Shown here: positions 437 through 63,930 of the stretch, in pieces
Numbering within the stretch: the first letter of the stretch is position 1
Layout of the letters: every line of letters begins with the position of its first letter
Assembly: GCA_033439295.1 (NCBI GenBank)
Contig: JAVTLE010000004.1
Location: 372,012-436,011 of the forward strand
Direction of reading: 5' to 3'
Source of the DNA: Deuterostichococcus epilithicus
Taxonomy: Eukaryota > Chlorophyta > Trebouxiophyceae > Prasiolales > Stichococcaceae
DNA length: 64,000 nucleotides
Translations under genes and position numbers: made by a program
Notes under the pieces: model-generated
Told to the model about the DNA's origin: nothing
Database searches by the model: none
Seen by the model: only the letters and a program-made list of their open reading frames with translations

Positions 437-3400
437 ATGTCGGAGGGCGTTGTGCTCAGCCTTGGGCAGGGCGTGCACGTTTCCGTGGATTTCTGGCGGC
501 GGTACCGGGTGCCTGTGGCGGCCCACTTCCTGACGCACATGCACGCCGACCACATTGAGGGGCTCGGCAGCGCTTGGCGCGGCGGCGGCGGCGGCGCCAT
601 ATACTGCTCTCCAGCGACGGAGCAGCTACTGCAGGTAGTCCAGATGGGGTTATAATAGCTGTTTTACTGGACTCAGATGCGTCACTTCTGGCTGTATTGC
701 GAGACGATGTGCTCCACAGGCGCTGCTGCAGATCCGTTGCAGAGGTTGCAGAGTTGCAGCAGTCGGACGTGCATGGCCATATGTCGCAGCGTCAGCCGCT
801 CAGATAAGCGGAGCAGGTTGCACAGCCTGAACACCCGCCGATCGCAGGAAAAGTGGCCGGAGATGTCAGCACCTGTGGTGCCGTTGGCGGTGGGCGAGAC
901 GCACGTGCTCCGGCTGGCGCCAGCCGCCAGCAGCACAAAAACAGACGCCAGCGGCGCCGCCATTGACATTGGCGTCACCCCCCTGGACGCCTGCCACTGC
1001 CTGGTGAGACGCTGCGACGTCACCGCCAAGCGCTGGCTGCGCTGCCACTGAGGCTGCCTCCATCATCGCCTGACAGGACGTGGTCATTTGAATCTGACCA
1101 ACATTGTTAGGCGAATTGTCCAGCAGCTATCCTTCGGGCCACCAACAGCGTGCCAAGCAGGGCACACATTTCGGGGCTCCCAGCGCAGTGTGCCTCGGGA
1201 AATGGCGTGGACGGCGCGGCCGCTGACCTGCGCCACCGTGCCGTGGCGCAAGCTGTGGTTGATGCCCTGCGCTGTGCCGCCTGCAGGGCGCGGTGATGTT
1301 CCTGTTCGAGGGGCCCATCGGCCGCATCCTGCACACCGGCGACTTCAGGTGCTGGCCTTCTGCTGCTGGCATCGTGAGGTTCTCTTGGGACTCTATGTTC
1401 TGCTGTGCTGAGACGAGGCAGCAGCTCCACGAAAGAGCACTGCTGTGGTGTTCTATGCCCTGGCGCAGCGCGTTGGCTGTGCCGTATGGCTGCCACCCAT
1501 TTCGTTCAGCAGTGCAAAGATTCACAACAATCGAGGGTGAATGAGGCGGTGTCGTGTCGTGGGCATCCCAGGTGGGAGGCGGCAGCACAGGCGGCGCGGC
1601 CATGGCACCCGGTGCTGACCTACGCACCGATAGACCTGCTGCTGCTGGACAATACATACTGCCACCCCAGGTGTGCACCCGTCTCGTTTGACATCGAAAC
1701 TTGACCGTAAGGCTTGCTCGAGACGTGTGAGCGGGCGGACCTGCTGCTTGAGGATAGCACGGACTGCCACCCCAGAGTTTCATCCAGCCTCCTTGCTCGG
1801 CAGGAAGATGTGGTTTTGCTGGCCCATGCCATGCGCTGCCAGATCAGTGGTCGACAGCCGGCGCCTGGAGCGCCACTCAGCAGCCCTGTATGGTCGCACA
1901 CGACACCGCGACCAAAGGGGCCGATCGCTACCGCATGCACGAACGCGCGGGGTGCCGCCTCAGCAGCGCAGGCCGCTGCTGTAACTGCATCGCAGTTACA
2001 GCGCGCTGGGTGGTGGGGAGTTGCTGCACTGTCACGCATGGAGTGATATGCCTGATCGCGGAGCTGGTAACTTGCCAGGTGCGAGGCGCCGACGCGGGCG
2101 GAGGCCGCCGCCCTGGTGCTCCGCCTGGTGCAGGCGCACCCCCGCCACGACATCGTCATCGGCGTAGACTCCCTGGGCAAAGGTACGCATTGCTGTCTCC
2201 CGCTGGAGCAAGTCTCCTTGTGAAAACACTGCGTCGATCGAGATGGCACATGCTCTTCGACACATGACGGCAGTTTGCTGGCATGCTTGTCCGGGCGCAC
2301 ACGTGCCAGTCAAATGTTATTGGCATCGACTTCCCAGGCAAAAAGGCGGGCCTCCGAAGCGCGTGCCCCGGAACAAGGCTCTCACTCGGGAAACCGAAGT
2401 GCGGTCCCTGGAGACGCCGGCAACTCATGCCTCTGGAGCTGCTGACGGCAGTGGCCGCAGCGCGTCCGTGGCATCCGTTTCCCCCCTGTTGTCAGCCGCG
2501 AGTGACAGTTCATCACAATACAGGACCTCTGGCAGAAACGGCCACGGCACTCGAGATTTGAGCACGCTCCAAGGTTTTCGCCACAGTGCTTGTAGAGCAC
2601 CTGCAAACGTCCAGGTCGACACCTCTGTGTCTGCGCCGCAGAGGAGCTGCTCGCCGAGGTGGCCGCGGGGCTCCTGCCGGGTGAACAGCTGGGTCTGGCG
2701 CCGAGCCGCGCCCCGCCCTTCTGGATCGCCGGCCACGACCGCGGGCTGTTCACAGCCAATGTCGCAGGCGCGCGCCGCCCTTCTGGATCGCCGGCCACCC
2801 GCTGCATTCTGTTGCAGTGCAAGCGGCGTGACTGCTGCCATGCGACAAACTTGTTACCATTCTGTTGAAGCTAACAACAGCCTGGTGTGTGCGACGATGT
2901 TGCAGAGGCCAGGGTCCGGGTGGTTCCGCGGTGGCAGCTCACGCTTGACCGTCTGGCACGGTTCAACAGGGTGGCGCCCACCATCGGCATCATAGCTTCC
3001 GGTTCGTCAAAGCTATCATCAGGACAGACACCCTGGGCCATCAGTGCATCAGTGCACGCATTGCACGAGCATCAGTCACACGTGCCTCAGTGCATCGTAC
3101 ATGCGCCTCGCCACCATGCATCCTGCACAAGGCTGGGTGAGCTGATGCTCGCATGCAGCACACCGGTGGGGCGGCACGCTGCCCTCGGCTCGCATCATCC
3201 AGAACGTCCCGCAATGCCAACGCAGAAAGGCTTGCTGCGCAGGCTTCGGGACGCCCACCGCAGGCGCCGCCGGCGCAGCGGCGCGCGGCGGGCGGCAGGA
3301 CGGCGGCGACCTGNCGGCCGAGGCGGCGGCGGTGCTGAAGCGGCTCCGGCCCTGCGGCAGCGGCGATGGCAGCGGGAGCGGCGGCGGGGACACATGTGGC

Positions 3401-4869
3401 GCTGCTGCAGGCGGTGGAGGCGGCAGCGGCTCAGGGCAGATGGTCGACCTGGTGGCGTACGCCGCGCTGCTGGCGGGCGTGCGGGTGGCGGACCCCTCAG
3501 ACACCTTGCCGCCCTCGGCGCAGGGTGGGTCCGGAGCCTGAACCTTGGGTGATCATTTCCGCCCTGAGTGGCCACCGCTGTGTCAGCGTAAGGAGGCTGC
3601 TATCGAGAGGCACGAGCAGGCGGGCGGAGCGGTGGCCATACTGAGCAGCAACTATGTTGTGTGCTTCGTCAGGGACCTGTCAGAGGATCGGGGCATCCGC
3701 CCTCTGCGTCGGGCAGCCCTGCTGCATAGCTGCCAAAGGGCACAGCACAGATGCTTCCTGGCGATGACAGTTGTGATGTTGTGCAGAGCTGGCGGCAGCG
3801 CGGGAGCTGCTGCACCAGGTGCCCTACTCGCTGCACTCGAGCTTCAGCGAGCTGCGCGCCTTCGTGGCCCGACTGCGACCGCGGGCCGTGCGCGGCATCG
3901 TCAAAGGCTCTGCGGCGGCGGCGGCGGGGGCTCCTGTGCCCCCTGGCGGCCGCGGCGGGGCCGCCGTTGGCGGCAGGGTCCGATTCTCCTGCCTAGACCC
4001 TGCGGTGCATTTCGCAGACCTGCTGAGCGGCGGCACCGACGGTGACGCTGACGGCGGCGGTGGGACGGCCGCGGTGGCGATCTTGGGTGCGGCTGCGGCG
4101 GCAGGCCCGGCAGCTGGCGGCACCCGGATCAGCAGCTGGCGGGTGAGCGGCCTAGCCAGCAGTGGATGCTGTGTGGGAAAATGCCCACCACATCTTGCAG
4201 CCATGCCTCTGCCCACTGGTCGCAGAGAATCCTGGCTCATGCTAGCTGATACGATGTGTCACTCCTGTGCACGCGGGTGAGCGGATGTCTGATTCAAAAG
4301 TTCTGGCCCATAGAATTCCGGCGGCAATCCTACATGTTTTTTCTCGGTCGCAGGGCCTGCTGCAGCACTGTAATGCAGAGCGCGGCAGGCAGCGGCTCCG
4401 GGCGACGGCGGCGGCCGCAACCGCGGCCGCCACCGGCCGGATGCGGATCGCAGTTCCAACAAAGGCGTGCGCCGGCGGTAGCCGTGCGGCAGGCGGCGGC
4501 TCGTCGCCAGTTGCGGCACCGGACTGCCGGCAGTCGCCCTGCGGAGAGGCTCTGCGCATTGCCGAGAGCGCATCGGCCAATGCCGCCGCCGCGCCCCGGC
4601 AGTCGCGCGGCCCGGCGGCTGCGGAGGCNGCGGCCACTGAGCGGCACGCAGCGGGCGCCGCCACCGGCGGAGCGGCATTGGGTCGGCCACCCGGCAAGCG
4701 GCGGCTGCCGGCCTGCTTCCTGCGGCCGACTAGCCAGGCAAGCAGGATGGATGCGTGCGTCTTGCATGACCAAGTTGACAGTGCGCAATCGATGCTGACT
4801 GGCAGTCCGTGGAAGTCTTGGCACTTGTTCAGATGCTCAATTTGTGACTTCATGTTGGCGATTCAATGA
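437..4869 (+). CDS. SNM1/Apollo-type metallo-beta-lactamase 5' exonuclease
   Basis: Ten exons: 437-634, 848-1003, 1287-1348, 1572-1670, 2079-2182, 2642-2680, 2906-3001, 3243-3524, 3787-4142, 4354-4869; phases agree and give 635 aa. The family trims 5' DNA ends in crosslink repair and at telomeres. Seen: the metal-binding HMHADH motif at residues 34-39, a DACHC-GAVMFLFEG block across exons 2-3, HTGDFR near residue 134, DNTYCHP in exon 4, SLGK in exon 5, PTIGI in exon 7 and VPYSLHSSFSEL in exon 9, the MBL then beta-CASP order of SNM1 proteins. The SLGK block and the lack of a long C-terminal region favour Apollo (DCLRE1B) over Artemis. Exons 8 and 10 are Gly/Ala-rich, each hold an N, and their exact ends are the least certain. 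It converges on nitrate reductase. A TGTAA lies at 5255-5259. Confidence 0.9.
1730..1774 (+). repeat. Echo of SNM1 exon 4 end inside intron 4
   Basis: The intron repeats the end of exon 4 about 100 nt downstream. The copy would read ADLLLEDSTDCHP against the real IDLLLLDNTYCHP. It keeps the terminal CCCCAG of the exon, but the donor GT after it has become AG. Confidence 0.8.
2314..2346 (+). repeat. Echo of SNM1 exon 5 end inside intron 5
   Basis: The copy reads NVIGIDFPGKK where the real exon end reads DIVIGVDSLGKG. It lies about 130 nt downstream of the real donor, and the donor itself is not preserved. Confidence 0.65.
2713..2798 (+). repeat. 24-bp direct repeat in SNM1 intron 6
   Basis: An identical 24-bp unit at 2713-2736 recurs at 2775-2798, 62 bp apart. 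It is a recent-looking tandem segmental duplication inside the intron. Confidence 0.9.
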
Positions 4870-17200: not shown

Positions 17201-19211
17201 GCGACACCCTGTCCAAGGTGAGGACACTTGGCGCGACGCTGACCTCATGGCGTGACGCCGATCAGTGCATGCATGAGGTCACTGACCTGACGACCGCATG
17301 CAGTAAGAAAAACGCAGTATGCAGCACGCAGCCTGCAGCACGCACTCCCTGTGCCTGGCTGCCCTGAGTGGGTTGGTGGGATCTCGCTTCGGGCTGCGTG
17401 CTCCCCGCTTAGCCGAGGGCGCTGCACTGCTGACTGCAGGGGGTACACGTCGAGTACGACACGCCCTGGGCGCGGCGGGACGTGCTGGGCATCCACCCAC
17501 AGAAGCAGGTAAGCAGTGAAGAACGCTGTTTCCGAGGAGACACGCTATTTTCCGGAAGCAGCAGAAGCTGCATCCATCTGCACAGGCACGCACCACCGGC
17601 GCGCATCTGCGGGGAGCGCGCCCTGCACTTATTACGGTTTAGGGTTTAGGATTTGTTCAGGCAGTCGCCAAGCGTTGGTTGCGCAATGCAACACCCACGT
17701 ACTGGCGCTTGCTCGCGGCTCACGTCGTGTGAACGAGTCCAATCGCACATTCTGCAGGACGGCCTGTTCTGGGTGGGCGTCTGCGTCCCGGCGGGTCGCT
17801 TCTTCGCTGACGACTTCTACGGCTTTGCTGACATCGCCGAGAAGTGAGCGGCCCCTGCCAAATGCGCGCATCAGCGCTGATGCGCGTCCCCTGCCTACCG
17901 CTGTGCGCAGCAATTGCTGTGCACTAAGCTGCTGACGCCAGCCAGCCAGCCAGCCAACAAGGATGGTCAGTCTGCCTGCTGCTGCTGACCTGCATCTCGT
18001 CCACTGGTAGAGATCTACAGGGCATCTCAACTGTCTTATGGCTCTGCAGGTATGGCGACGGCACGGTGCGCCTGACAGTGGAGCAAAACCTGCTGTTCCC
18101 CAACATTCCGGAGGACCGCCTTGACGAGATGCGCCAGGTTTGCGCACTTTCTTCCTTGGCTTCTGTCGCATCACAGTGCAGAAGCGTCTGTCCGACTCAA
18201 GCGCCTTGTTTCGGGAGCCTTCCTGCCTTCCAACACTGACTGTGAGCACTTCGGGGTAGGCTCACTTCCGCCGGCTGTTGCTGCGCAGGAGCCGCTGTTC
18301 CAGAAGTACCCCATCGAGGCGGGGCCGCTGGCCCGCGGCCTGGTCTCTTGCACCGGCGCCCAGTTCTGCGGCATCGCGCTCATCGAGACCAAGCAGCGCG
18401 CGCTGGCAGTTGTCGAGAAGCTGGAAGCACAGCTCAACATCCCGCCCGGCATCCGCATGCACTGGACCGGCTGCCCCAACTCCTGCGGCCAGGTGCGCGC
18501 GCGCTTGGCGGACGCGCTTCCGCTGCGCCGAGGTCGAGCAGGGTGTGGGCAGCAGGGCACGGCGCTGTGGCACCACCGTCCTGAAGCCGCCCTGCCCCGC
18601 CTGCAGCGGCGCCTGCCTCTGTGCCGGCGCGCTGCAGCGGCAGTCACGTCTGCTGCGGGTCTCCACGATCGCGTCAGCCCTTCACCCTTCTGACTCTGCT
18701 GCTCCGCCGTGCGGCGCAGGCGCAGGTGGCGGACATCGGCCTGATGGGCTGCCCCGCCAAGAAGGACGGAAAGGCAGTGGAGGGCGTCCGCATCTTCCTG
18801 GGCGGCACCATCGGCGAGCACGCCGCGCTGGCCTCTGAGTTCGAAAAGGTGGGCTTGAACGGGTGCACGCATGCTCTCTGGAAGGCCGCTGAGGAGGAGG
18901 CTCACGGACAAGGGTTCCAGGTGTTCGTGGGCGGCACCATCGGTTTGAGGGGCACGCCGATCTTGCCTTCCAAGTGTCAGAATGTGGGCTTGATCAAATG
19001 ATCGGACAATTGTCAGGGGCCTGTGGAGAAGGCACGGGGAGCTCGATTGCTGGGGTGTATATGTCCACCAGCTGGCAGCGTTTCTCACTGCAAATTTGCT
19101 CACCCCAGCATCTCCTGTGTGCTGCAGGGCATTCCCTGCGAGGAGGAGATCCTGCTTCCCAAGCTGCGGGAGCTGCTGATCGAGAAGTTCGGCGCCACAA
19201 CCAAGGCCTGA
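14207..19211 (+). CDS. NII: Ferredoxin-nitrite reductase, chloroplast
   Basis: Fifteen exons: 14207-14557, 14789-14902, 15149-15256, 15429-15501, 15681-15794, 16035-16121, 16302-16462, 16727-16854, 17100-17217, 17440-17508, 17758-17843, 18050-18137, 18289-18492, 18720-18848, 19128-19211; 637 aa. It takes nitrite to ammonium with six electrons from ferredoxin. The Ser/Arg/Ala-rich first 80 or so residues look like a chloroplast transit peptide; ATG at 14281 is an alternative start. The 4Fe-4S/sirohaem ligands are all present: SCTGAQFCG (Cys about 520 and 526) and GCPNSCG (about 561 and 565). Other family blocks seen are DVDVRLKWAGLFHR, RFMMRLKVPNG and GFNLEVGGYFS. It is head-to-head with nitrate reductase. 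TGTAA at 19615 may end the transcript. Confidence 0.97.
17636..17650 (+). repeat. Telomere-like GGTTTAGGGTTTAGG motif
   Basis: Two consecutive TTTAGG(G) units inside a nitrite reductase intron, the longest interstitial telomere-type tract in the window. Confidence 0.7.
17936..17960 (+). repeat. (CCAG)n short tandem repeat
   Basis: Five to six CCAG units in a nitrite reductase intron. Confidence 0.85.
18911..19000 (+). repeat. Echo of nitrite reductase exon 14 end inside intron 14
   Basis: The intron repeats the last part of exon 14. The copy reads VFVGGTIG where the exon reads IFLGGTIG, and the similarity runs on through the donor into the first intron bases (GTGGGCTTGA in both). It starts about 60 nt after the real donor. 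Later codons have drifted and the donor no longer follows an open frame. Confidence 0.85.
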
Positions 19212-25671: not shown

Positions 25672-25930
25672 CTTGATGGCGCGGTGCACGATTGGGATGG
25701 CGGGCTCACGCCCCTCGATGTTGAACACCACGACCTCGCCGGCGCGCACAGGGGCGCGGCCCAAGTGCAGTGACAGGAGGTCGCCGCGGTAGAAGCCCGG
25801 CTCCATGCTGCCGCTCAGCACCACGACCACCTGGGAGTTGAGAGTAGCCGCTCTCACACCACTAGTACCCGTGCAAGTTCAGGGTTCACATCGCTTTGTC
25901 ACTCCGACACCTGACGACATCATGCGGTGT

Positions 25931-37300: not shown

Positions 37301-39969
37301 GCGGCCATCGGCGCTGGCGCGCTGTGCGACCCCTGTTTCTGGGCACCAGCGAGAGGCTTGTCAGAGGCCGGTAGCGAAAGCAGCTTTTTCGTGTGCAGGT
37401 GACTGTGCGCAGTGCGAGCTGCTGGCAGGAGCATGCCTTGCTGCCCATACCCCAGCACCCAGGCCAGCAGGCTGCACGGACAAGGCTGCCATGCAGTCTT
37501 GCTTTGCGCTTCGGCAGAGGCCCTTGGCAAACGAAGGCCATTTAGCTCCGGGCGGCGAGCTGATGGGCACGGCAGCGCAACAGGGGCAGCTGCTGTGTAT
37601 TGCGCAGCCGCCTGGCGATTTGTTGTGAGGGAGAGAGCACTTTCCTCACCTTGATGCGGTTTGGAATCATGCGCCCTTTGAAGACGCTGGTCTTCGGATG
37701 CCCTGCACACCATGTGGCAGACAGTATCGAGCATAGCTTAACCTGCCGGTCCGGTTGCTGGGGTTCGATTTGCAAACAAATCACGGCGGGCGTGCAGTGG
37801 GGGAGCGCAGGGAGCCTTAGTTGACGAGACAGGTGATCACATCAGCGGGCGGATCCTCCGGATTACATCTGGTTGCCGGCGCCGCACCCTTGCAGAAGGA
37901 GGGGGGGGTGGCTGTAAACCCCAAGTGGCTGTAAACGCTGATGAGAGTTCTGCCCCCCAGGGTCTCCAGGCTTGTGTACACGCTGCTATCAAAAGGTCAC
38001 CTTTGTAGGAGGAGGAGGGGTGGCTGTACACATTGAAGAGGTACTGCCGGTCCAGTGGCGTTGAGCCCTCTCTGATGCCGCACACCCGCTGCAGCCGGCT
38101 CAGCTGCTTCTCGCTGCAGCCGTACGCCTGTGCGACAAGGCATGAACGGCAACATGATGGGCAGATGAGTGTCAAACCAAGGCACTGTTTCTGTGGGCCA
38201 CAGAGACACAGGCTCCTTGCCCATCCTTGAAGCAGCAGCTTGTGTACGATGTGCTGTATCAGGACATTCAGACTTGCTCATCTGGGGCACTTGCTGCCGC
38301 CTTTCGGGGATCTGACCACATGCCGTCACATCGCTGACATCGAGACGCTGTTGGCCGCTGCACAGCAGCTGCGGCACGCCGGCCGGGGGTGCGCAGCGAT
38401 TAGTGAGTTTCACAACGCGAATTTGAATGCCTTCGGCCGGCGCCTGCAACACTACGCCCCAGCCGCCGGCACAGCCCCCGGCGAGTTGGCGCTCGCGCAA
38501 TCGGGGATCCCCTCGGAGACGCGTGCACGGATGCACCACTGCCCAACCGCTTGCCTGCTCAGGTCCAGCTTCCATACGCACCTTCAGCTTCTCCTTGGGG
38601 ATGAGGCCGCCGGCGTCGCGAAACCAGTCGCGCCAGGTGTCCTCGTGATGCAGCTCTCCCGCGGACAGGAACATCAGCGCAACGCGGGGAAAGTCCAGCA
38701 CCGCGTTGCAGCGTGTCGGGTCCCGGGGCCCCGTCTTCCGGTAGGACCTGCACACAGGAGGGGCAGGGCACCACTCGCCATGCTTCCTTCACTGCAGGGC
38801 ATGGCGGTGGAGAAAGGCACCAGCTGGCCCCTTGTCTGCACCACACTGTCAGGAGTATGCCCGCCGCAGCACAGTAGGCGCAGCACATTGCACAAGCAAG
38901 AGGGCTCACGTCGAGTGGCCTTCTGGATCCCAGTCAACATTGGAGCGCAGGTGCAGCATGCGGCAGGCGACGTTCAACTCAACAACTCCATAGCATTGCA
39001 TGATCGATGCCAATGAGGCCTGCCAGGAACGTACACCCAGTCGATGTTGGAGTGCAGGTGCAGCGCGCGGCAGGCAGCGGGCCAGGAGCCGTCGTTGCAC
39101 TTGCGAGCGACCGTCAGGTACAGCAGCAGCGACGCAAAGCCAACCGTCACCCACGCGCTGGCAGAAGGGAACCGCCGCCATGCCCGCCGCAGGCACCTGC
39201 GCGGGCCGATGCGGTGGTAGTCTAAATCGGACCATCATCTGTGAAGCCGCCGGCACGCGATGGCAGGCAATAGTGGCAGTGCAATGCAGAGCCTGTTGCC
39301 GCAGTCGTCTCCATTACTCGGAATTTGTGAGCAGTGCTCGAGCAGGCAATGCTGCCGCTCAGCAGGCCATGGCGGGGCTGATGAGGATGTGCAGGTGAAA
39401 CTCATAAAGATCGCCCACCCCGGCTGGGGAGGCGGTGGAGGCGGGACATTCAGGGGCGTGGTGCCGCCGGGGCTGAACACAGTGTCACCCTCGGGTGGCT
39501 CCCCGCCCTGCTCGCTGCCCGCGTCCGAGGGATACTTCTGCCCGCCTGCTGTCGATTGCAAATGTCGTCGTCAATGAATGTCAGGACGCGCTTGTTGTCA
39601 ACCCCACGCAATGGCCAGCGGCTCTGTGGGAGCACCACCGCAGGAAGGTGGTAAGAAGACGCACATGCAAGAATTTCGACTCACTGGAGAAAGCTGGGCA
39701 GCGCAAACTGCGCCTGCCGCGCTTGCCGATTGCCACGCTCATGCCCATGGAGGCACAGAGCAGGCAGCCCCGGTGGCTCTGCTGGCATTGGCAGGTGCAC
39801 ACATGCACAGGCCGCAGGCGACGCAGGCTTGATCCTGTTGCTTTGCAATCCCGTGCACAAGCTGCATCTCACCTTGCCGGTTAACGGACAGGCCGGGCAG
39901 GCTGTTGGAGCTGCCGCTTCGCCCGTGCATTGGGCTGCTGCTGCCCCGCTCAAGGTCGAGCCGCTCCAT
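34357..39969 (-). CDS. GT14 (core-2/I-branching, DUF266) glycosyltransferase
   Basis: Thirteen exons, read downward: 39969-39873, 39548-39489, 39221-39035, 38747-38582, 38127-38001, 37702-37650, 37207-37025, 36680-36613, 36357-36238, 35694-35530, 35039-34962, 34688-34569, 34459-34357; 508 aa. GT14 enzymes transfer sugars in the Golgi; in plants they act on arabinogalactan proteins. Type II layout: basic cytosolic N-terminus, one helix (WVTVGFASLLLYLTVA, about 76-91), then the catalytic domain. Family blocks: PRVALMFLSAGELH, QYLFNVYSHPS, VFKGRMIPNRIK, NQQFLLLSESEVPLYP, WRKSPAWFGLVRKHAE, CYLDEHYVPSLL and KCPLFARKF. The second-last exon needs a TAG acceptor at 34689 to keep phase. It is divergent from the DUF1232 gene. 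N bases lie in the intron at 36884-36890. The exact sugar acceptor cannot be read from sequence. Confidence 0.9.
35703..35782 (+). repeat. Imperfect (ACTGATTGG)n tandem array
   Basis: Five or more degenerate ACTGATTGG-type units lie in the GT14 intron next to the CYLDEHY exon. The array sits just past that exon's acceptor. Confidence 0.75.
36917..36966 (-). repeat. Echo of GT14 exon 7 end in the next intron
   Basis: About 50 bp match 37038-37088 at roughly four of five bases by eye. The copy reads VVRRRLIGKERTL against the exon's VVWRQLIGEEKSR. It is about 60 nt past the real donor, beside the N-containing stretch. Confidence 0.88.
37889..37940 (-). repeat. Double echo of GT14 exon 5 end in the next intron
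   Basis: The minus strand carries GTTTACAGCCAC twice, worn copies of the exon's GTGTACAGCCACCCC, and the second keeps a TGCAAGG|GTGCGG donor-like end. Both lie 60-110 nt past the real donor. Confidence 0.75.
38931..38972 (-). repeat. Echo of GT14 exon 3 end in the next intron
   Basis: A 42-bp stretch matches 39038-39079 at 34 of 42 positions counted by eye. It reads CRMLHLRSNVDW against the exon's CRALHLHSNIDW. Confidence 0.9.
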
Positions 39970-41192: not shown

Positions 41193-43335
41193 ATGGCCAA
41201 CACCAATGAGGGTGTTGACAGCGCAGAGTCTGATCAACGCGACGCCGAGAGTGAGGATACCTTGCTCAGAGGTTGCATAACTTGGAGAAAGCAACTTTAT
41301 GTAGGGTACCCGCTCCCCATGCGGGTACCCCATTTTCTCTGCTCCAACCCCTGCGGCACCTGATACTCCGTGATTCGACGGTCATATGCTTTGCCCTGGA
41401 CAAGAGCGGAACGAGCTCACAAGCTCGGTGGTGCATGTGCAGGCGAGTGGCCGAGCAATTATACAGAGGCGCGGCCGCGTGGCCTGTTTGCCCGACTGAA
41501 GGATGTTGCGAAGCGCATAAAGTCCGAGATCGCAGTCCTCTACTTCGCGGTCCAGGAACCCGAGGCAGGGTGGATGTCCAGGGCCGTCGCCTCGCTCGCC
41601 GTGGGCTATGCGCTCAGGTGTGTGTGTGTGTGTGTGTGCAAGCTGCATGCCGCGGTGACTGTGAGATGCGACTGGTGCGGCGCTGCTGTCAGACTGCACA
41701 TCGACCGAGATGGACCTCAGCACGTGCCTTGTGCCCGCCTGCCGTTCATGACGCCAGACACCGAACAGCAGGTGAGCATGCGGCATTCGAGCACCCCCCA
41801 AAGCTGCCTGATCAACGACCATCCTAGCAGCGGGCCGCCGCGCCTGGCCGCGCCTTGCGCCACCACGATGCTGCTGATCGGCTGTCGCCCCCTCCTCTGC
41901 AGCCCCATCGACCTGATACCCGACGCCATCCCGGTGCTGGGCCTGCTGGACGATCTGGTCGTCCTGCCGGGTCTTATTTGGCTGGTGCGCTTCTGATGCG
42001 CCCGGGGGCCCTGGCGCCCGCACTGCCATCGTGGCTGATCGCATGGCGCAGAGCCGGCGCTGGAGTTTGCACGGCGTCTGAGTTTACAGCTCTGCTGCAG
42101 GCCGCCCAGTTTGCCTGCCCCAGTCACACTGGTGCTCGTGGGTGTGCGCCCCAAGGAAGTTTGTGCAGGTCCTCAAGCCCGTCACACCAGGACATCTGCT
42201 GTCTGACAAGCTCTGTCGTTCCACACCCTGGGCTTTCCAGCGCCCAGCGCGTCGTGACGCCTGCCGCAGGCCGTCAAGCTGATCCCACGGCCCGTGCTGG
42301 AGCGCGCCCGCCGGCGCGCAGAGCGCGAGCCACTGCGTGTCGGGCAGCACTGGCCCGCCGCCGCCGTTATCCTGCTGGTGCCTGCCCTCCTCTTCCCTTT
42401 TCAAACCAGACATTGTTCTAGACTTTGCGCAAAGACCACTTTCTCTGGGCCCCCGACGCCCGCGGGCCACCGCCACCCTGCCGGTGCGCCGTCGTCTCGG
42501 CTGTTCCAGATCATTGATCGCCTGGAATTGGGAACGCGCCAACCTCAGAGCCCCCGATGCCACCGCCACTACCGACATCCTGCTGGTGTCAGCCCCGCCC
42601 TCGTGGCGCACCTGCGGGAGCCCCCAGAAGCCTCCTATTCCCTGAGCGTTTCCTGGCAAGGCACCCTCATCGAGCATAGTGTGTCCACGGCAGCAGTGTC
42701 ATTGGCCGAGACTCACCCAAACCCGTCGAGCAGGCCATCGTCCATTTGATACCGGCTCATTTCGACACGCAGCTGTGGGACGTTTCGGTCTTCCTGCTGA
42801 TGTACCTGCTGTGCGGCAAACTGGGTGGCGGGCGGCTGCGGCGCAACAAGCTCGCCGCCGCGGGCGCGACCGCAGCCGCTGTGGCCGTTGGCGAGGTGCG
42901 GCGCTGCCGGTCTGCTGTGCTGTGCCGCCGCCGCATGCCTGTGCCTGCGCTGCCTGCAGAGCCTCCGGCATGACGACTGCGTCCCTCACATGACGCGTAC
43001 TCGTGCGACCACTCGAAGTCGTCAGGACTGGGTGCCATCAGGTTGCGTGTCCGCCCTGCTGCCAGCACTGCCATGCGCCGGAGCACTGCACCCATCGGAG
43101 CACCTTAGTGGGCAGCCCACACGAGGGAGTCGCACCCCCAGTGGGCGCGGCGCGCACCCCGTGAAGTCCCTCCGGCGTGCTGACGCCTGCCTGCCCTAAA
43201 TCCTGAAAGCTTGTGCAGGCCGCCTGGCTGATCCACAAGGTCAGGATGTACCGGCAGGAGGGCAGTGTTGGCGTCGTCGGCGCGGCCGGGGAGCTCAGCC
43301 GGGAGCCGCTGCTGGCGGACAGTGCGCAGCCGTAG
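41193..43335 (+). CDS. DUF1232 (YkvA-like) small membrane protein
   Basis: Five exons: 41193-41271, 41443-41617, 41903-41984, 42270-42377, 43219-43335; 186 aa. DUF1232 proteins are small membrane-associated proteins of unclear role, common in bacteria and plastid lineages. The domain is complete: KSEIAVLYFAVQEPEAGWM, SLAVGYALSPIDLIPDAIPV (the diagnostic SPIDLIPD is built across the exon 2-3 junction), GLLDDLVVLPGLIWL, KLIPRPVLERARRRAERE, then a last hydrophobic segment (AAVILLAAWLIHKV) and a short polar tail. The acidic N-terminus (about 27 residues) does not look like a transit peptide. The donor of intron 2 is the first GT of an 11-unit (GT)n run. TGTAA lies at 43550-43554. Confidence 0.88.
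41304..41330. repeat. Perfect 10-bp hairpin in DUF1232 intron 1
   Basis: GGGTACCCGC (41304-41313) and GCGGGTACCC (41321-41330) are exact inverted arms around a 7-nt loop. Weaker pairing of GAGAAA and TTTCTC outside could extend it. No coding or transposon context was seen. Confidence 0.85.
41618..41639 (+). repeat. (GT)n microsatellite at a splice donor
   Basis: The run begins exactly at the exon 2 boundary of the DUF1232 gene, so every GT is a potential donor in one of two reading phases. Confidence 0.9.
42462..42605 (+). repeat. Two echoes of DUF1232 exon 4 end in intron 4
   Basis: The exon end with its donor (CCGCCG...ATCCTGCTG|GTGCC) recurs near 42462-42490 and at 42557-42605. The second copy keeps ACATCCTGCTG|GTGTC, including a usable-looking donor, and a following CCCTC stretch also matches. 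Confidence 0.7.
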
Positions 43336-52278: not shown

Positions 52279-55200
52279 TCAGACGGAAAATGCCAGCACC
52301 TCGTAGAAATCGAAGACAGTCTTTTTGAGGACGGGCGCGCCCGCCTCCAGGTCTGGCATCTCATCGTCCAGCACCTGCACCAATGCACCGCAAATTGAGG
52401 ACGGTGAAGTTTCAAGAGATGAGACGGTCTTCAAGCCAAAGCACAGCAAAATTCCAAAACATGGGCAGGACTTTGCTGCGGCATGCAGCAGGAACAAGGG
52501 GTTGCTCCTCATGGAGGCTGTCCCCAGCGCGTGCCCGGCTGGCAATCCTGCGGAGCATCGGAAAGAATGTACCACATGCAGGGTACACGCATCCATGCGC
52601 GCACCTTGATGCGGGTAGAGGCAGTGGTGTTGAAGTCCCGGCATGCGTGCTTGATGTCCTTCGTAAACCTGCAGGCCATTGTTGGGGTCCTTCGATGGGC
52701 AAGCCAAACATGGTTCGGACTTGAACGCCGGACGCGCGCGCGCAGCAGTGCCCACAGCAGGGCTCGTGCACCTGCTGGGCAGCAGGGCTCGTCCATCTCC
52801 TTGGCAGGCAGGAGAGGTGACGGCGCAGGTGCAGTGAAGGAGGGACGGAAGGAAAGGGAGTGAAGACGCACGGCGGCGGGCCGCATACAAACACGCCAAC
52901 TGTCTGGCCCGGGTGCTGGTCCGCGACGGTCGCCATGATCTTCTTCCAGTTTGGCCGCCCGAACTCGGTGACCACCTGGGCACCGGCAGACAGGGTATCG
53001 CAATCAGAGATTGCAACATTCCGGTGTTGCTGATCGAGTTTCTGATCAATCCTTCTGCGGTCGGGCTGGCACATGTCCGCAGGGCAGCGATGTGGAACAC
53101 ACACCGCCGAAGGCAGCAAACACCGGGCATCACACGGGCGGATAAATGCTGAAGCGAAGCGGATGCTCGCCTTGGACTTGAGGCCGGTGACGATGTCAAC
53201 GCCCCGCTCCTTGAACAGCGCCTCCTGCCCCAACTGCAGCAACACACAAGACCAGGTGGTGGCAAGCACTGTTTGGTGCAGAAAGCATTGCACGTTGACC
53301 AGCATCCGGACCAGCATTCCTGGCCGCTCAGCAAGCTGGCCGAGGAAGGCAGCGCGGCCGGCACGGCGGGAGAGGCACTCGGCAGCCTTCCTTGCTGCAG
53401 TCCGCAAGTGTCATCCAGGTTGGGAGGAGGCTTCTTCATGGGGCCGAGGCTGGTGTCTCTTCCTGGTGAAGAGCAGGGATGACATGCACGATACAAGCTC
53501 TGGCCACTGTCCGGGCAGGACTGAAGGCTTCATCACCAGGGGCGCACCTTGACAAACACATGGTGCAGGTCCGGGCCGTCGCCGGTGGCGGGCTTGCGGC
53601 CGGTGAGGTGGATGCGCGGCTCCACAAGGCCGAGCTGGTCGTCGCTGGAGATGGTCTCCAGGGTGCTGGCGAAGTAGTTGGGCGCGGTGCTGTCGGACAC
53701 CACCCAGTCTGCAGGGCGGCACATGCTTTTCATCAGAGCCGGCAATGCCTGCTGTGTGCCGGCTGCCGGGCGTGATTGATGGGGCGCATTGCTGTCTGAC
53801 ACCACGCAGCCTGCAGCAAACCTCCGGCTCATTCGTTACTCACACGATGTGGTGAAGATCTTCCAAATGCCATACAGGCTGCGTGCAGTCGGTGGCTAGC
53901 TGAGGGGGCGCTGTCACGCGCCTGGAACTCAGCGTCTGGAACTTCCCGGCGTGCTGGGATATGGTGGGCAGGGGCTGACCAGCTGGACAGGGGCGCCCTC
54001 ACCAATGAAGAATCCGATTGCAGCATGGCATCGCATCTAGGCGTGGCTGTCTTGCGCGAGAAAGGCGGGACTCACGGAAGTAGATCTTGTTGACGCGGAT
54101 GCCCGCGGCATGCCCTGCAGTGTGCGTCGTGTGGCCGCAGCCCTCGCACACGGCGCCGCCCTCCAGCTTGTTGACCATGTCGGCCAGCACCGAGGCAAAA
54201 GGCGTCACGCCGATGCCCGCGCCCACCAGCACCACCACCTCGTAATCCTGCGGGGGCGGGTATGGACCGTCATCTCGAGCAGGAGACAAGGACAGCTTTA
54301 CAGGTGTCTGAACCACGCTCTCACACTGTCTGCCGTGTCCGCCAGCGACACCAAGGCGAAGCGCGCCGCGCCCACCAGCACGACCTGGCATCCTGTGGGC
54401 CGCGTGCGTGTCCTCCAGAAGCCAAGATGCCCTGTGTTTCGGCGCGGGCGTGCCTCTCAAAGCTATTGAGTATTGAGACTCTTTCCGCACCTCCCAGTGC
54501 AGCGCCGGTGCGTTGTAGGGGCCGTCCAGCAGCACCAGCGGCGCGTGCGGCAGCGGGTCCCAGTTGCAGGCGCGCAGAGAGGCGCGCGTCCGCCGCCGCT
54601 GCAGGGTGGGCTCCAGCCCCGAGCCGGCGCCGGGCGCGAAGGTCGCCTGCCGCTGCGCCATCTTGCTCTTCAGGTCCGAGTGGCCCCCGGAGCGCCCGCC
54701 CTGCAGCGACGATGACCCGCCGGTCGACGAGTGGCCAGGCTGCATGCCGCGCAGCGCGCGGCGCTGCCGGCTTGCTCGTCGGCGTGACCCGTGGCCGGGC
54801 AGAGTCTGGCAGCGCAATGGCCTTCGAGAGCGTCATGAAGCGCGCGAAGCTGAACGACGCCAGCTTCAGCGGTGCTGTTGATTCGATGCAGGACGCTAGG
54901 AAGCAGGGGCGCAGAACCTGCTCTGGTAGGGGCGCTTGTGGGAACCCCTTGAAGTAGATTCCCCCAGCTCTGCGACGAATAGCAACATTGTACGCACCAG
55001 GCTGATGGAGCCTAGCGATGGCGGGGCTCTTGATGCGAAGCAGAGCGCGAGCATGACAACAGGGAGCAGGGCTGCGCACCTTGGTCTGCGACAGCGTCAT
55101 TGAGCGTGCCAGGCTCATGGACCCCAAGGAGGACGGAATGCTGTCGCGGAAGGAGCCCAGTGCCCCCAGCTGCTTCTCCATCGGCGGCAGGGACGCCTGC

Positions 55201-58200
55201 GTGCGTGAGCAGCCACAGCAGTCGATCACAGGAGGTGACTGCTTCAGTAGCCTGCCCTTGACTGGGCCTGCGACCGCGGACAGCCGCCTCTCCAGCGGCG
55301 GCGGGCTCGCCTGCGTAGGAGGCGGCAGTGGCTCTTGAGGACAGGCAGCTGCGAGACATGAAGATGCTGCATTGCTGCACAGGGAGGGCTGCAGCCATTG
55401 CGAGCAGGACAAGCGGTGCTGCTCCACTGATCAGCAAAGAAGCGAAGCCAGGCCTCGCCGGCAGGGTTGTGCAACCGCCAATTGGCAGCCCCACCGGCAG
55501 CGGAGGGCCGGCCCATGAGGCGCCTGCGGGAGTTCCTGTTCTTTCCTCCCAGAGCCTCTTCCTTGGGAGCAGTTGCTCCCAAAGTTTCTGCCCATATGAA
55601 GCATTCCAGCTCACTAAGCGTGACTACTGCACCAAATATTCTGCACCAGGCATGAAGGTGCCAGCTGGCCGCACAGCTGGCCCCTTCGTCACCACCTCCC
55701 ACGAGAACCTGCCACGACCCTGCACAGCCAAGCTGTACCATGCTTTCTCACGCCATGCGGGATGTGCACGCCAGCCAGACCCTGGCTGGCCTGACCGCTT
55801 TCGTGAAGTCATGACTGATGAAGTCAAAGAGGACAGCAGCTCACCTCAACGCCCTTGGCGTAGGTGGACATGTGCTCGTACAGCGCATGCGTCCAGTCGC
55901 CGGCGTCGCGGACGTGCACCGACACATACGGGTCGCCGGGCGCGCTGGTGATGGCTGCGCACAGCGGCGGCGCCCAGTGTTCAGATGCCACAGTGGGCCG
56001 TCCGGCATGCGCGGCAGGGGCTGTCAACAGGCGCAATGTAATGGAATTGAGTCTACAGCGGCGACGGCTGCGGCGGCGCCAGGTGCGGCGGCACGCAACT
56101 GCGACTCGGGGCAGGCGAGGATTCGGAGAGGGGCCCGTGACGCACTGAATGGGTGCCACTCCATGACGGACAGCGCTGGAACGTTGATGAACATGTACAT
56201 CCCGGGCCTGCGGGTGCACGCACGGCGCAATCACATTTGCACAGCTCTGCCTCCACGTTGTACGAGGAGGACAGCCTCTAAAGGCAGTGCTCACATGCCG
56301 CTGCGGCTCCCAGGCCGCAGCAGCTGCAGGTGCACGCCGTGGCGTCGCCGCCCGCGCCACTGCCGTAGGGCCCTGCTTCCCTCAGAACCTTGAGCAAGGG
56401 GCGTGGACAGGGTGCTGCAGCGGTGACATGAAGCAGAACCCCGCCACTCTTGACCTCCAAGCAGGCGCTCCAGCAGGTGCTCCAGCATTCGGCTGGCAGG
56501 GTGTGGGCTCAGGGTTTCCATCCAGAGCGTGGGCTGGGGCTGCCCACTTGTAGGAGAAGTCGCGGGGGCGACGCATGCGCAGCACGGTGACGCCGCCCCT
56601 GCCGCCCTTGCCGGGCAGCAGCTCGATGTCCAGCAGGTCGCCCTTGAAGGCCACGTTGCGGATGAGGCGCCACGCGCGCTCCGCCACGTACAACACAAAT
56701 GGCAGCGCGATGTAGATCTGCACGCGGTGAGGTGTCCGTCACCTACACTCCTCCTGGCAGATGTGCTGCCTGTCCGCTCGATGAGGTATACAACAGACAA
56801 GTGCAGCAGGGAAGCAGTTCTCAGAGTTGAGGCTCAGCACACGCCTTATACACCGAATCTGAGAGGGCTCTACGGTGTCCGTGACACAGTTGCCACTCGA
56901 ACAGGTGCCCAAGGCAGTGCATTTCGCATCGGACAGCGCACCCAGGTGACGCTGCGGTGGCTAAAGTGCTGCGACGGCGTGCCCGGGTACGGGTGGATGA
57001 TGAGGGCCACGTAGAAGACGATCCACATGAGGATGTGCGTGATGCTGAAGATGGTGAAGTTGTTGAGCACTTTGCCCACGGCGGTCTTCTCGATGACCTT
57101 GGCCTTGCGCGGGTACCAGGTCGCGAAGGGGTAGCTGCATGGGTAGGTTGGACAGTGGCAAGAAGTCAGCCTCTGCTGCGGGGCCGCTGTTTTGAGTGCC
57201 TCACGGCAGCTGGCGTTGTGCAGACACGTTTGCAGGCGCAGATGCACAGTAACCGGCCTCATCTGACGGAATTTCAGGCTCAAATTGGGCTGCCAGCTGA
57301 CGCAGCGTCGCTGGGATATCGATTGTGCTCAGTGTTCAGAAGGGGCCGGAATCCTCAGGAGACTCACCCCAGCAGTAGTGCGGCCCACATGACATACCCT
57401 GCAGCCGGGACGCAGCAGTCAGCAGCCCGGCAGTGGAAATGCCAGAACAGTCGCAAGAGTGGCCTGCACCTTCGGCAGCCTCCCATCCACTGCCTGCCTG
57501 CTTCCACCCCCTTGCAATTTGAATGGCCACGCAGCCTTGACGCCAGCCTTTGTGGTGACAGCGCAACATGACCACACAAGGCCGTACATGCCGGCGTTCG
57601 CACCCGTGATGGACGTCTCAGTGGTGCACAGTGAATGCGTTGTTGGCTGCGGCGTCGTGGGGAAGGTCTCGACCCACTTGTCCGTGTATGAGGGCGAGGC
57701 CTGGCATAGCCATGGAGGCGGGCGGTCAGGGGAGCGCTGCCAGGTTCAGGCGTGAGGTGCATTCGCGTTTGTACTGACACATCAGCTGCATCTGTGAAGC
57801 AGGACTCGCAGTGGACACGAGGCAGCAGAACACAGCAGATACTGCCCCGGCTGGACTGTTGAGGCGGCGCTTCGGCATGCGGCGGGCCTGTGGTGTGTGC
57901 AAGTGAGGCAGTCGCTGTGCAGGTGCAAGCGAGGGAAGAGATTCCAGCCCTGCGCGCACCCAGATGGAGTAGTTGGCGATATGGGCAATGGTGTGGCCGG
58001 CTGAGCACAGGAAGATGAGGTAGCCGCACAGTCGGTGGAAGCTGATGGACTCGTCAAACGGCAGCAGGTAGCGTAGGGGGGTGTTCCTGCAGCGCAGCGG
58101 CAGCAGCCCGTCAGGTCGCTTCCTTTCTCCATCTTCTTCTGTTACCACGCACCGGGCATGCCGTGAGCCATGTTGGGTAGGCGCTGCTGCGAGGGAGGCC

Positions 58201-61200
58201 GTGCTTGTACAGCGCAACACTGGAGCAGAAGGGCGGTGCACAGCCCAGCTTCGTCAAGCTTGGCCAATCAAGTAAACAGCAGCCTCACCTCAGCGCGGTG
58301 ATTGTGCGCCGGCAGACGGCGAACAGCAGCAGGAACGACAGCGGCTGGATGACCTGCAACAGACATAAAAGGCATCAGAGAGAGGTGGGTCGGCAGCAGA
58401 GCGATATGACTGCCCTTTGAAGCCTCTGGGGTGGACGACAGCATACACGAGCAGGCAGCAGCAATGGAGCACAATGGAGCACAGGCCCGTCAAACACAGG
58501 CGACTGTGTGCTGCGGCGCAGGCAGGCTGCGCCAGCCCGTTCAGGGAACCTTAAGGACAGGGCCTGCACCGCCAAGGGTGCGCACGCACCTGTGCAAAGG
58601 CCTTGGCCAGAGGATATGCGCAGCCGCTGACGTGCGCGTTCAGGTTCTTGTAGTTCTGCCAGTACCCCGCGAAGAAAGCGAAGGCTGCACAGGCAGGCAA
58701 GAGGTTTGTAAGGCCACTGGCGCCTGTCCGTGCAGAGTGCTCTGCCAAAGAGGCCGTGATTCCCTCCGCCAGACGCGACTGGCAGCGCTGCAAGGCAGCA
58801 GGAGGGGATCAGGGCGGCCTGGCGCAGGCAGGCAGCAGGATTGGCAAGGGATGCACAAACAGAAGGCTTGCGCAGCAGGGCGCCGCCGAGATGCAAGCAC
58901 AATGCAACAGGGTGCGGCACGCGCGGGTTGTGCTCTGGGGAGTCCGAGCAGCTGGTCCAGATCATGATGCGGAGTGAAACGTCTTCCAGACACACGCGAA
59001 GACAGGGCATGCCTGATCAGGCCGAGGCAGACCCCCTCAACAGTGGCACGCACCCATGCCGATCCAGAACAGGACGAAGAAGGGCAGATGCCGGATGCCA
59101 ACGAAGTCCAGCCAGTAGTTGCGCAGCTTCTGGCTCCACGCGGCGCGGTGCTGCCCCGAGACGCGCTTGGAGTGCTGCCGCTCCACTCCCTCGATGTGGC
59201 GCTTGAGCAGATCCACCAACTCCTCGAAGCGCACCGTCTGGGTGACCACGCCGCTGTTGATCCTGTGGCACACGAACGGCAGACATGGGTTGGTGGCCCA
59301 TCCTTGAGGTGCAGGAAGCAACAGCGGGCGCCATGACTTCACCACACATGCCATTGACCAGGACTCTGCGCTCGAAGCGCATCGCCTGCGTCACCACGCC
59401 GCTGTTGACCCTGCGGTGCGGGCCACTGCAAGGATGATCAGCGACAGCCGCGGCTCTCCGTCGACTGGGACTCTGCGCTCAGCACTACACCAGTGACATC
59501 GCCACATTGCCATGTTCCTGACGGCAGGTAGCGGCGAGCAGCCATAGATGTGGAGCCTGCCAACAGCTGGTCGGGCGAGGCATGTGAATAGAACGGCCAT
59601 AGAGCCAGACAGAGGGTCAAACAATGGTGCTACGCTCCCCCTCAAGCGGTGCTTTGACCCCTTCATTTTGTTTGAAAGAGGGACGAGCGCCCACTGGCGC
59701 AGGCCAATGAGCAGTCGGCCACCTCACGACCGTCCCTGGCTGCCAACCTGGACATGCGCTGATGCCCTTCCGACCGCGTGGGTGGAACGTGCAGGCGGCC
59801 CCCACACCACACAGAGCCCGCCCTGGCCGTTTCGAAAACCCTGCAAACACTCTGCCAAAACCCTAAAACCCCACCTGTTGAGCTTGGCCTCCATCAGCGT
59901 CTCCTCCTCGCCAATTCCGGTCAGAGTGGTCTCCTCGGAGACAGCACGCGAGGCGTGGATGTCGTGGATGAGCGCCTCCGACGTCCGCTGCAGCTGCTTG
60001 TCCGTGACCGGGATCTTGAGCTTCAGGAAGGCCACCTGCGGCGGCGAGCGGCGGCGCGGCGGTGAGACTTTTGCCAGGTGGCGGGAGGTAGCAGGTGAGG
60101 CGGCGGGAAGTGGCAGGTGAGGTGGCAGGTGGACAGAGTCGAGGTGAGACAAAGTACAGCCCGCGCAGCGCAGTAGCCGCCAGCAACTGCGCAGCACCCG
60201 CCAGCACGGGGGGGAGGGGGGTGGGGAGATGGGCGCCGAGAGACTGAGGCGCGTGCCGGCACGCGGCGCTGCAAGGCCGCCGCTCAGTGGGCATATGCCA
60301 GGCGTTCCCAGCGGCCCCGCGGCATGGCAGACGAGCGGCGCCTGGGGGATAAGGCACAGGCGGAGGCGGCAGTTGTCGTTGCAGGGAAAGGCCCCTGTTG
60401 CAGCAGGGAGCGGGAGGTGCAGCGCCCACCCTGAGGATCTCGTCCAGGTTCTCACGCGCAATGGTGCCATCGTTGCGTGTGTCCAGCAGCTCGAAGGTGA
60501 TGCGCAGGTGGTCCTCCAGGCTGGCGTGCTCCAGCGTTAGCAGCGCGTCGACAAGCCGCTCCGCCGGCACCTCCTCAGCGCCCTCTGTGACGCAAATTCG
60601 ACGGGCAGAGCGTCAGAACACTGCGTGTCATGCCACCGCTGACCAGCACCAGGCCGGCGTGCGCCGCTGCCGGCGGCGCATCCGCCAGCCGCTCCATTGG
60701 CACCTCCTCGGCGCTTCCTGTGTGAGCGCATTTGCAGGCCAAACCACCACACAACCGCTCGGCAGGGTCCTCGGCCTTTGGTTGCGCCGCAGCACCGTTC
60801 CCCAGGGGCGGCTCGCGTGCTTTGACGCCGATGGTGTGGCCGCCAACGGCGATCCGTCGGCAGCGGCTACGTTTTCTGGATGCCACAGATGGCGAAATGA
60901 TGTTCTTCTCGGGAAGATCCTCAAGGGGTGCCCCGGCCAGCAGCACGGCCGGTGGTCGCTCAGTCAGGCCGCGCGCGGCAGCTACACGGGGCAACAGAGC
61001 ACGGATATGATCACACGCTGCAAGGTCATGCATATCAGTAGGTTTGCCTAGAGCTGGCAGCTGTGCTGTTGGGAGCGCAGCTGCCGCCGTGAGCGCAGCT
61101 GCCGCCATTCCTACTTGTGGCGGTGGCAGCCACCGCCTGCCCGGAACTCTTGTCACCAGATGCCACACTGGCAATGCCTGCCGGTAAGCGCCCGGTAAGC

Positions 61201-63761: not shown

Positions 63762-63814
63762 CGCTGCATGGAGCGCGCCTCCTCCCGCTATCTGCCCGTC
63801 GTCAAGTCTTCTGC
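63762..63814 (-). repeat. First echo of the right-edge gene's exon start
   Basis: After GGTGCAG it begins GCAGAAGAC, a worn copy of the exon start GCAGAAAAC after CCTGCAG at 63709, and the GGAGGAGGC...CTCC core is kept. The copy has an in-frame stop. Confidence 0.75.
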
Positions 63815-63884
63815 CTGCACCACGTGGAAAAGATGGGTCGAGTCCCTTTTCGAGAGGTTTGACTGGGGATATGCTGCCTTGCTG

Positions 63885-63930
63885 CCTCACGGAGCACGCC
63901 CCCTCCGCCTGCCAGGCAAAGAGTCTTCGC
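63885..63930 (-). repeat. Second, older echo of the same exon start
   Basis: After TGGCAG it begins GCGAAGACT and keeps GGCAGGCGGAGGG and TCCGTG, again matching the exon at 63709. The three copies are spaced 105 and 116 nt apart. Confidence 0.7.

Follow-up and report, generated by a model that had tools for sequence, protein, structure and literature searches.

In the stretch of algal DNA analysed here, approximately one intron in seven bears a decayed copy of a neighbouring exon's edge in the same orientation, and the presence of exon-edge copies in adjoining introns is confirmed as a real observation. The analysed DNA is one window of 64,000 nt, including eight N bases, with draft gene models; the exon/intron junctions are also draft ones, and several of them were placed using the repeat homology. 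An algal relative was sought among viral contigs and GTDB contigs and none was found there; GTDB gave two bacterial loci, which were left unused.

The original prediction of at least 15 copies in eight transcription units, resembling the nearest exon edge and forming two mirror classes, was borne out and somewhat enlarged. Seventeen curated edges are copied into the adjacent intron, 9 on the acceptor side (copies of exon starts, class A) and 8 on the donor side (copies of exon ends, class D), and two further edges were found later in a DUF1232 gene and in a gene at 62.9–63.9 kb, so that the copies are spread over nine transcription units. In the curated set, all copies are direct and lie 77–158 nt from their sources (mean 122). 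Very similar copies are few. The copies and related segments are as follows (copy position, strand, description, identity and distance from the source).

1738..1775, plus strand: class D copy of the SNM1-like exon end 1633–1670 (30/38 identical, 105 nt)
2766..2802, plus: copy of the exon-interior segment 2704–2742, just beyond the exon end (35/39 columns, 62 nt; among the most similar copies)
18924..18993, plus: class D copy of the nitrite reductase (NiR) exon end 18795–18858, including the donor (54/71, 129 nt; intron-side log-odds positive)
25924..25973, minus: class A copy of the SEC11-paralogue (B) exon start 25786–25832 (40/50, 138 nt)
29245..29281, minus: class A copy of the SEC11 (A) exon start (core 29253–29278, 21/26, 155 nt; changes in common with copy B)
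31835..31860, minus: class D copy of the HAD-hydrolase exon end 31917–31942 (23/26, 82 nt)
35823..35862, minus: class A copy of the Branch-type glycosyltransferase exon start 35666–35704 (32/40, 157 nt)
36894..36966, minus: class D copy of the Branch exon end 37018–37087 (60/74, 124 nt)
37300..37329, minus: class A copy of the Branch exon start 37175–37204 (26/30, 125 nt)
37885..37919, minus: class D copy of the Branch exon end 37998–38031 (29/35, 113 nt)
37925–37954, minus: further partial copy beside the preceding one (24/30, 95 nt)
38929..38968, minus: class D copy of the Branch-gene segment 39036–39075 (34/40, 107 nt; exon end uncertain, the draft model stopping earlier)
42427..42497, plus: class D copy 1 of the DUF1232-gene exon end at 42377, a draft junction (54/82 columns)
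42532..42602, plus: class D copy 2 of the same exon end at 42377 (51/80 columns against the exon)
53782..53816, minus: class A copy of the NADPH-oxidase exon start 53680–53714 (30/35, 102 nt)
54366..54385, minus: class A copy (core) of the NADPH-oxidase exon start 54217–54236 (19/20, 149 nt; extended, 70/101 columns)
54808..54862, minus: possible second copy, exon end 55080 (41/57, also 33/45; 262 nt)
54969..55012, minus: class D copy of the NADPH-oxidase exon end 55085–55124 (32/44, 116 nt)
55281..55316, minus: class A copy of the NADPH-oxidase exon start 55167–55202 (30/36, 114 nt)
58985..59017, minus: weak class D copy of the exon end 59063–59096 (29/36, 78 nt)
59371..59416, minus: class A copy of the exon start 59223–59268 (40/46, 148 nt)
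60649..60730, minus: class A copy of the exon start 60516–60594 (63/83, 133 nt)
63763..63844, minus: class A copy 1 of the exon start at 63709, source block 63658–63745, with about 36 nt of intron included (63/90 columns, 105 nt; straddling tandem duplication)
63881..63964, minus: class A copy 2 of the source block 63658–63745 (64/97 columns against copy 1, 116 nt)

Seven of 25 introns carry copies in the NADPH oxidase gene and none of 16 in nitrate reductase; confinement of the copies to certain genes is not claimed, since heterogeneity across ten genes gives p 0.07.

Excess similarity to the adjacent exon over controls, on which the original prediction depended, was found in the window by several scans. 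When 60-nt tiles (n = 3172) were compared with the next 400 nt, 77 direct and 1 inverted matches scored at least 30, and the same threshold at seven offsets of 1–12 kb gave 0, 5, 8, 21, 8, 8 and 7 tiles, the 21 at the 3-kb offset being attributed to the SEC11 paralogue pair approximately 3.3 kb apart. Ungapped pairs scoring at least 16 numbered 25 at distances of 20–199 nt, simple repeats included, and 0 at 200–599 nt. These two scans are independent of the gene models; the unmasked tile scan and the first copy search covered the window up to its last ~460–560 nt. The window also contains GC-rich repetitive sequence, a part of the near repeats being simple ones, and an ordinary 108-nt tandem repeat at 47456–47653.

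After simple repeats had been masked, scores of at least 28 were reached by 63 of the 3194 near tiles: 47 were exon-intron, 7 intron-intron, 7 unannotated-unannotated and 2 exon-unannotated, against 4, 5, 2 and 2, respectively, plus 10 intron-unannotated, in controls at three offsets summed. In the exon-edge scan, a match of at least 26 in the intron next to the edge was obtained 6 times among 107 exon ends and 9 times among 106 exon starts (expected 0.15 each); far edges of the scanned exons, used as a control, gave 2/95 and 0/93. Both of these scans used gene models in which the curated copies were forced to be non-coding and are thus not fully independent. Exon edges without a called copy showed no sub-threshold excess (median p 0.51–0.53).

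The copies decay as non-coding DNA. Mismatches between exon and copy are spread evenly over the codon positions (39/242, 33/241 and 43/243), and the 726 columns contain 35 indels, 21 being of 1 nt. Frame-breaking indels and even mismatches rule out coding, alternative or mutually exclusive exons, and the third-position bias expected of an origin from the exon of a diverged paralogue is absent. The third-position excess is only 0.028 (CI −0.030 to 0.085), which implies little synonymous change in the source exons since copying. Changes from exon to copy lean to GC (AT to GC 51/221, GC to AT 44/453); with introns at 61% GC, this lean is not predicted by simple neutral decay. In a laxer alignment run, HAD and RBOH_59054 (2 of 17) matched themselves and were ignored.

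The SEC11 pair allows some comparison of rates. Its spacer changes roughly as fast as fourfold sites do (t 0.3, CI 0.15–0.8, versus K4 0.32), and the copy can be read as decaying more slowly than the spacer, although the likelihood intervals of the two overlap; in simulation, the product of two probabilities for a copy outlasting the spacer is at most ~0.003 at the simulated rates. Ongoing conversion of copy by exon is rejected because, on our reading of the sequences, the SEC11 copies retain two changes that the paralogues have in common but do not carry two changes seen in exon A. Introns with a copy (n = 16) are longer than those without (n = 99) by 45 nt (95% CI 1–89; rank test p 0.034), where a full straddling unit would add about 120 nt; the difference is nearer the size of a single copied exon edge than the mean distance of 122 nt, and the length gained may have been trimmed since copying.

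The reach of homology differs on the two sides of the junction. Exon parts of the 17 curated pairs match over ~29–90 nt (z 12.7 for 0–40 nt), whereas on the intron side similarity, compared with pairs permuted within class, has z 3.2 at 0–10 nt, 0.2 at 6–26 nt and −0.8 at 40–80 nt; beyond ~10 nt the 17 pairs together equal the permuted ones. Summed over these pairs, Pair-HMM log-odds come to about +290 for the exon side (t 0.2) and to −27.4 for the intron side (t 0.5), where permuted pairs give −27.2. Simulated straddling duplications give an intron-side z of ~13 if all pairs were copied thus and ~9 if half were. The conclusion that homology is limited to the exon depends on relative decay rates within one window.

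As read off the alignments by hand (ends at −9 to +10 nt), the source segments end within 12 nt of the junction in 17 of 18 cases (null mean probability 0.18). Under laxer scoring the SNM1 segment, entered as 0, extends 18 nt into the intron, and the two later loci (DUF1232 and 63.7 kb) extend ~16 and ~36 nt; with these counted, the figure is 17 of 20 at best. Of the 8 class D copies, 6 lack GT at the aligned junction.

It had been predicted that each copy arose by tandem duplication of 50–150 bp across an exon-intron boundary. Such a block should leave homologous intron parts as well, and the 17 pairs together show none beyond ~10 nt, so the prediction is not supported as a general account; at single loci it is nearly explicit or suggested. 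At 63.66–63.96 kb an ordinary tandem duplication across the boundary is nearly explicit, with three copies (88/105 nt homologous) and ~36 nt of intron within, so the reading that homology never enters the intron is too strong. Intron-side log-odds at NiR (+2.5), SEC11 A (+2.2) and DUF1232 (+3.2), set against mismatched pairs (95th percentile 1.3, 99th 3.2), suggest straddling duplication there too. Copies 1 and 2 of DUF1232 align with their flanks in 70/112 columns; the log-odds of these flanks are mixed (+1.6 and −4.9, and −2.1 in another run). For single loci the intron-side test is near its limit, the 63.7-kb array itself scoring only 0.07 beyond 12 nt.

In our opinion, the best reading, to which we would give an even chance, is that of short local direct duplications which, for the most part, are confined to exon-edge sequence and which splicing makes tolerable. 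Short direct duplication of DNA would copy ~29–90 nt of an exon edge into the neighbouring intron, 77–158 nt away, in most cases carrying along at most ~10 nt of adjoining intron, with at least one locus (63.66–63.96 kb) being probably a plain straddling duplication. The extra copy would be spliced out, leaving the protein unchanged, and would then decay neutrally, as any non-coding DNA, with the intron becoming longer. We infer a cause at the DNA level, most likely linked to repair or replication (end joining with templated insertion, or slippage), with splicing presumably acting as a filter on which copies persist. Of the original prediction, local direct duplication is supported, and so is decay of the copy as non-coding DNA, the latter by the indels and the codon-position counts given above. 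The best reading does not account for the location of intron-side ends at splice junctions. Template switching at microhomology between splice motifs, considered as a mechanism for such ends, is not general, acceptor words being ~3-fold enriched at 6–8 nt and donor words depleted.

One mechanism for all loci is possible, since the 63.7-kb array demonstrates that plain tandem duplication occurs here. Duplication of 75–160 bp across the boundary at every locus, the exon half being kept readable by coding constraint and the intron half erased faster, would cover orientation, adjacency, the mirror classes, the range of distances and the scarcity of intron-intron repeats, and it draws on the 63.66–63.96 kb array, the positive log-odds at NiR, SEC11 A and DUF1232, the aligned DUF1232 flanks with their mixed scores and the 108-nt tandem repeat. 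We nevertheless regard it as doubtful, if worth serious consideration. At the decay estimated from the copies, simulations give mean log-odds of +152 (minimum among 60, +107) versus the observed −34, and P 0.05 is reached only if introns decay 3 times faster than copies, a difference supported neither by codon positions nor by the SEC11 paralogues, where the spacer follows roughly the fourfold-site rate. Allowing for long indels (0.03 per site and lineage) still leaves a mean of +65 at equal rates, and at twice the rate 0 of 12 simulations per setting came down to the observed −24.5.

Other explanations concern the junction itself. A splicing-aware process, such as repair on the nascent transcript or breaks focused at exon-intron junctions, that copies exon edges cut at or near the junction into the intron beside them, at a distance of roughly one nucleosome length, and serves as a main source of intron sequence in the lineage is, in our view, unlikely. 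Slightly less probable still is that the copies have a function, such as that of a decoy splice site or an intronic splicing enhancer, and were kept by selection while the rest of an old duplication decayed: homology centred on the junction, the lack of sub-threshold excess at other edges together with the few very similar copies, and the SEC11 copy outlasting its spacer fit this, but source third positions are hardly more changed than first and second ones, implying little synonymous time and a copy that changed at least as fast, GT is mostly missing in class D and the SEC11 intervals overlap. Copying from RNA, with exon-edge fragments of the nascent transcript as template in the repair of nearby breaks, would suit the junction-proximal ends (17/18, or 17/20 with the later loci) and the exclusively sense orientation; we consider it very unlikely, as direct evidence is lacking, the ends are inexact (further off at the later loci), one copy derives from an exon interior (2704–2742), and inverted copies, which would pair with the splice site, could have been purged by selection. 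Chance similarity, low complexity or faulty assembly might be invoked in GC-rich repetitive DNA with some simple near repeats and eight N bases; it is hardly credible given the few matches in inverted and distance-shifted controls of the window, and unequal decayed copies across nine genes are not expected of an assembly fault.

Internal duplications are reportedly frequent within eukaryotic genes, some of them activating latent splice sites, and the present copies are similar to them in being within-gene. Tandem genomic duplication of exonic DNA containing AGGT (reviewed in PMC3443670; Drosophila cases in PMC2891723) creates a new intron that begins like the downstream exon and ends like the upstream one. 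Both phenomena are small within-gene tandem duplications, harmless through splicing and readable in the intron; the copies described here, however, lie mid-intron and repeat the nearest exon edge, with or without the splice site, as the original prediction had distinguished them. Judged by the positions of the copies found, the AGGT signature is absent.

In repair-mediated proximal duplication, short copies of nearby DNA (mean 162 bp for the proximal ones, on average ~1.2 kb away, detected by insertion into transposons) are inserted at a break, with microhomology and filler at the ends; a few partial exon-intron segments occur among the donors, and an inverted exon copy is reported. The present copies differ in being shorter, direct and mostly no more than 160 nt away, with ends close to splice junctions. 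Introner elements, a source of introns in several lineages including green algae, form repeated families with transposon marks (PMC9860276), whereas the spacers here have no common sequence (17 compared all against all, mean score 13.0 versus 14.4 in the control) and each copy is recognised via its own neighbouring exon. Transposon or introner insertion is thus ruled out by the absence of a spacer family, and the predicted distinction from introners is upheld. Among the matches listed in open-licence literature, there was no description of exon-edge copies in adjacent introns.

The source of sequence in already existing introns is poorly known. Long homology in the exon, set against its absence in the intron, offers a sharp and cheap test of tandem duplication versus a junction-respecting process. 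The exon serves as a built-in, slowly changing reference for dating the copies, and, if one intron in seven bears a readable copy of an exon edge, intron growth would become datable, countable and traceable locus by locus.

Direct repeats at short distance were found in the window far above the level of the controls. With no use of gene models, 77 of 3172 tiles have a direct near repeat scoring at least 30, against one tile for inverted near repeats and 0–21 for seven distant offsets. The excess of ungapped repeats is restricted to distances below 200 nt, and after the masking of simple repeats 47 of 63 near-repeat tiles pair an exon with an intron. In the draft models, with curated copies forced to non-coding, 6/107 exon ends and 9/106 exon starts match their own adjacent intron (expected 0.15 each), and the far edges of these exons, taken as a control, match at only 2/95 and 0/93. 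The original prediction of decayed exon-edge copies in flanking introns, with similarity to the adjacent exon exceeding that in controls, was thereby borne out. No residual excess was detected among the other exon edges (median p 0.51–0.53), which argues against many further, half-decayed copies having gone unnoticed. All results are drawn from one 64 kb window, and the gene models are drafts from a small HMM trained on the window itself.

The window has a GC content of 54–68% (2-kb steps) and carries intron-rich genes, such as those of an SNM1-like nuclease, a HAD hydrolase, a Branch-type glycosyltransferase, a DUF1232 protein and an NADPH oxidase, the last matched by solved NOX5 and cytochrome b-245 heavy chains. 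Pfam matches of the genes include DRMBL, Peptidase_S24, HAD, Branch, DUF1232 and the ferric-reductase NAD domain; nitrate reductase, ferredoxin-nitrite reductase and SEC11 signal peptidase are what we take three further products to be from reading of the translations.

Features of the window
6033-13130, minus: nitrate reductase
14207-19211, plus: nitrite reductase, divergent neighbour of the preceding gene
25089-26100 and 28100-29930: partial SEC11 paralogue, consisting of one conserved exon and the copy upstream of it, and the full SEC11 gene about 3.3 kb away
47456-47653: tandem duplication outside the draft gene models, 108-nt period
48321-48735 and 49073-49156: dense short-period repeats (12, 15, 24 and 30 nt) and a 6-nt GGGCTG run
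62.9-63.9 kb: unnamed gene
63.66-63.96 kb: three-copy array
near 7625-7635, 17635-17655 and 20220-20230: TTTAGGG-like short words, like plant and algal telomere repeats

On names read from the translations, the divergent nitrate and nitrite reductase genes are a nitrate-assimilation cluster. GC instead of GT starts 10 of 115 draft introns, e.g., at 28976 and 53170 (minus); such an intron in SEC11 seems to be needed for an in-frame conserved protein, and some of the remaining ones are probably model errors.

The curated set comprises 17 exon edges with a copy, nine of them acceptor-side (exon starts, copy in the upstream intron, 102–158 nt from the source) and eight donor-side (exon ends, copy in the downstream intron, 77–135 nt away). 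The copied exon part is 29–90 nt in 15 alignments and 38 and 47 exon bases in the other two. Among 18 source segments, the ends of which were entered by hand from alignments, 17 have their intron-facing end no more than 12 nt from the junction (mean null probability 0.18), the exception being an exon-interior segment (2704-2742, copied to 2766-2802); the SNM1 source, entered as 0, reaches 18 nt into the intron under laxer scoring, and two later-found loci reach about 16 and 36 nt. At least three loci have more than one copy. In ten multi-exon draft genes 16/115 introns contain a curated copy, a set excluding the SEC11 paralogue fragment and the window-end gene, with the DUF1232 locus added later.

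A function for the copies has a low probability, and the codon-position data argue against long-lasting constraint. Mismatches to the source are spread evenly over codon positions (39/242, 33/241 and 43/243) and 1-nt indels make up 21 of 35, so their decay is that of non-coding DNA. The amount of synonymous change that the source has undergone since it was copied is estimated by the third-position excess, 0.028 (CI −0.030 to 0.085). Changes from exon to copy (GC to AT 44/453, AT to GC 51/221) are towards GC, although introns have 61% GC.

It had been proposed that 50–150 bp tandem duplications across the exon–intron boundary produced the copies, and a block of this kind would have to include intron sequence in addition to exon sequence. 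In junction-anchored comparison of the 17 own pairs with permuted pairs, z is 12.7 across 40 nt of exon; on the intron side no signal was found at 6–26 nt (0.2), 10–30 nt (−0.6) or 40–80 nt (−0.8), and it is confined to the first 10 nt (3.2). Simulations using the copies' own decay give an expected z of about 13 for an intron part in all pairs, 9 for one in half of them and 5 for one in a quarter; a pair-HMM points the same way, with −34 observed where +152 is expected. Simulation equals observation only when introns decay about three times as fast as copies; with long indels added, a twofold rate is still insufficient (12 simulations per setting). Such a threefold gap is not supported by the sequences: the estimated rate of SEC11 introns is close to that of fourfold sites, albeit with a broad interval, and synonymous change in the source exons is slight. 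Ordinary tandem repeats also remain visible in the window: 67/98 columns are identical at 47456-47653 (log-odds +4 to +11), and in the three-copy array 88/105 nt align across the junction with 70% identity. The anchored log-odds of this array is only 0.07 beyond 12 nt, so the test is close to its limit at any one locus and the conclusion depends on the sum across loci. Straddling duplication is nearly explicit at the array and suggested at nitrite reductase, the full SEC11 gene and DUF1232; at the remaining loci the copied piece looks restricted to the exon edge.

GT is absent at the aligned junction in 6/8 donor-side copies (e.g., 1776, 38929 and 54963), so selection on the donor may contribute to the junction-proximal ends; in three of these six homology ends before the junction, where the alignment is approximate. 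AG is kept in 6/9 acceptor-side copies, or 7/9 allowing a one-base shift, and this difference may point to selection against competing donors.

The SEC11 copy, including two changes inside it, is common to both paralogues as read from the alignment, and for this reason it probably predates their split. The paralogues differ at 7/27 fourfold sites, and no homology between them was detectable upstream of the intronic copy.

Tandem genomic duplication is accepted as one way in which new introns arise (PMC2891723, PMC3443670), introners are another known source of introns (PMC9860276), and in vertebrate genomes repair-mediated proximal duplication is known to generate local copies (PMC2671141). 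Among the matches listed in open-licence literature, none described the enlargement of existing introns by exon-edge copies. In our opinion, local direct duplication is secure in this window, and we infer that splicing conceals it.
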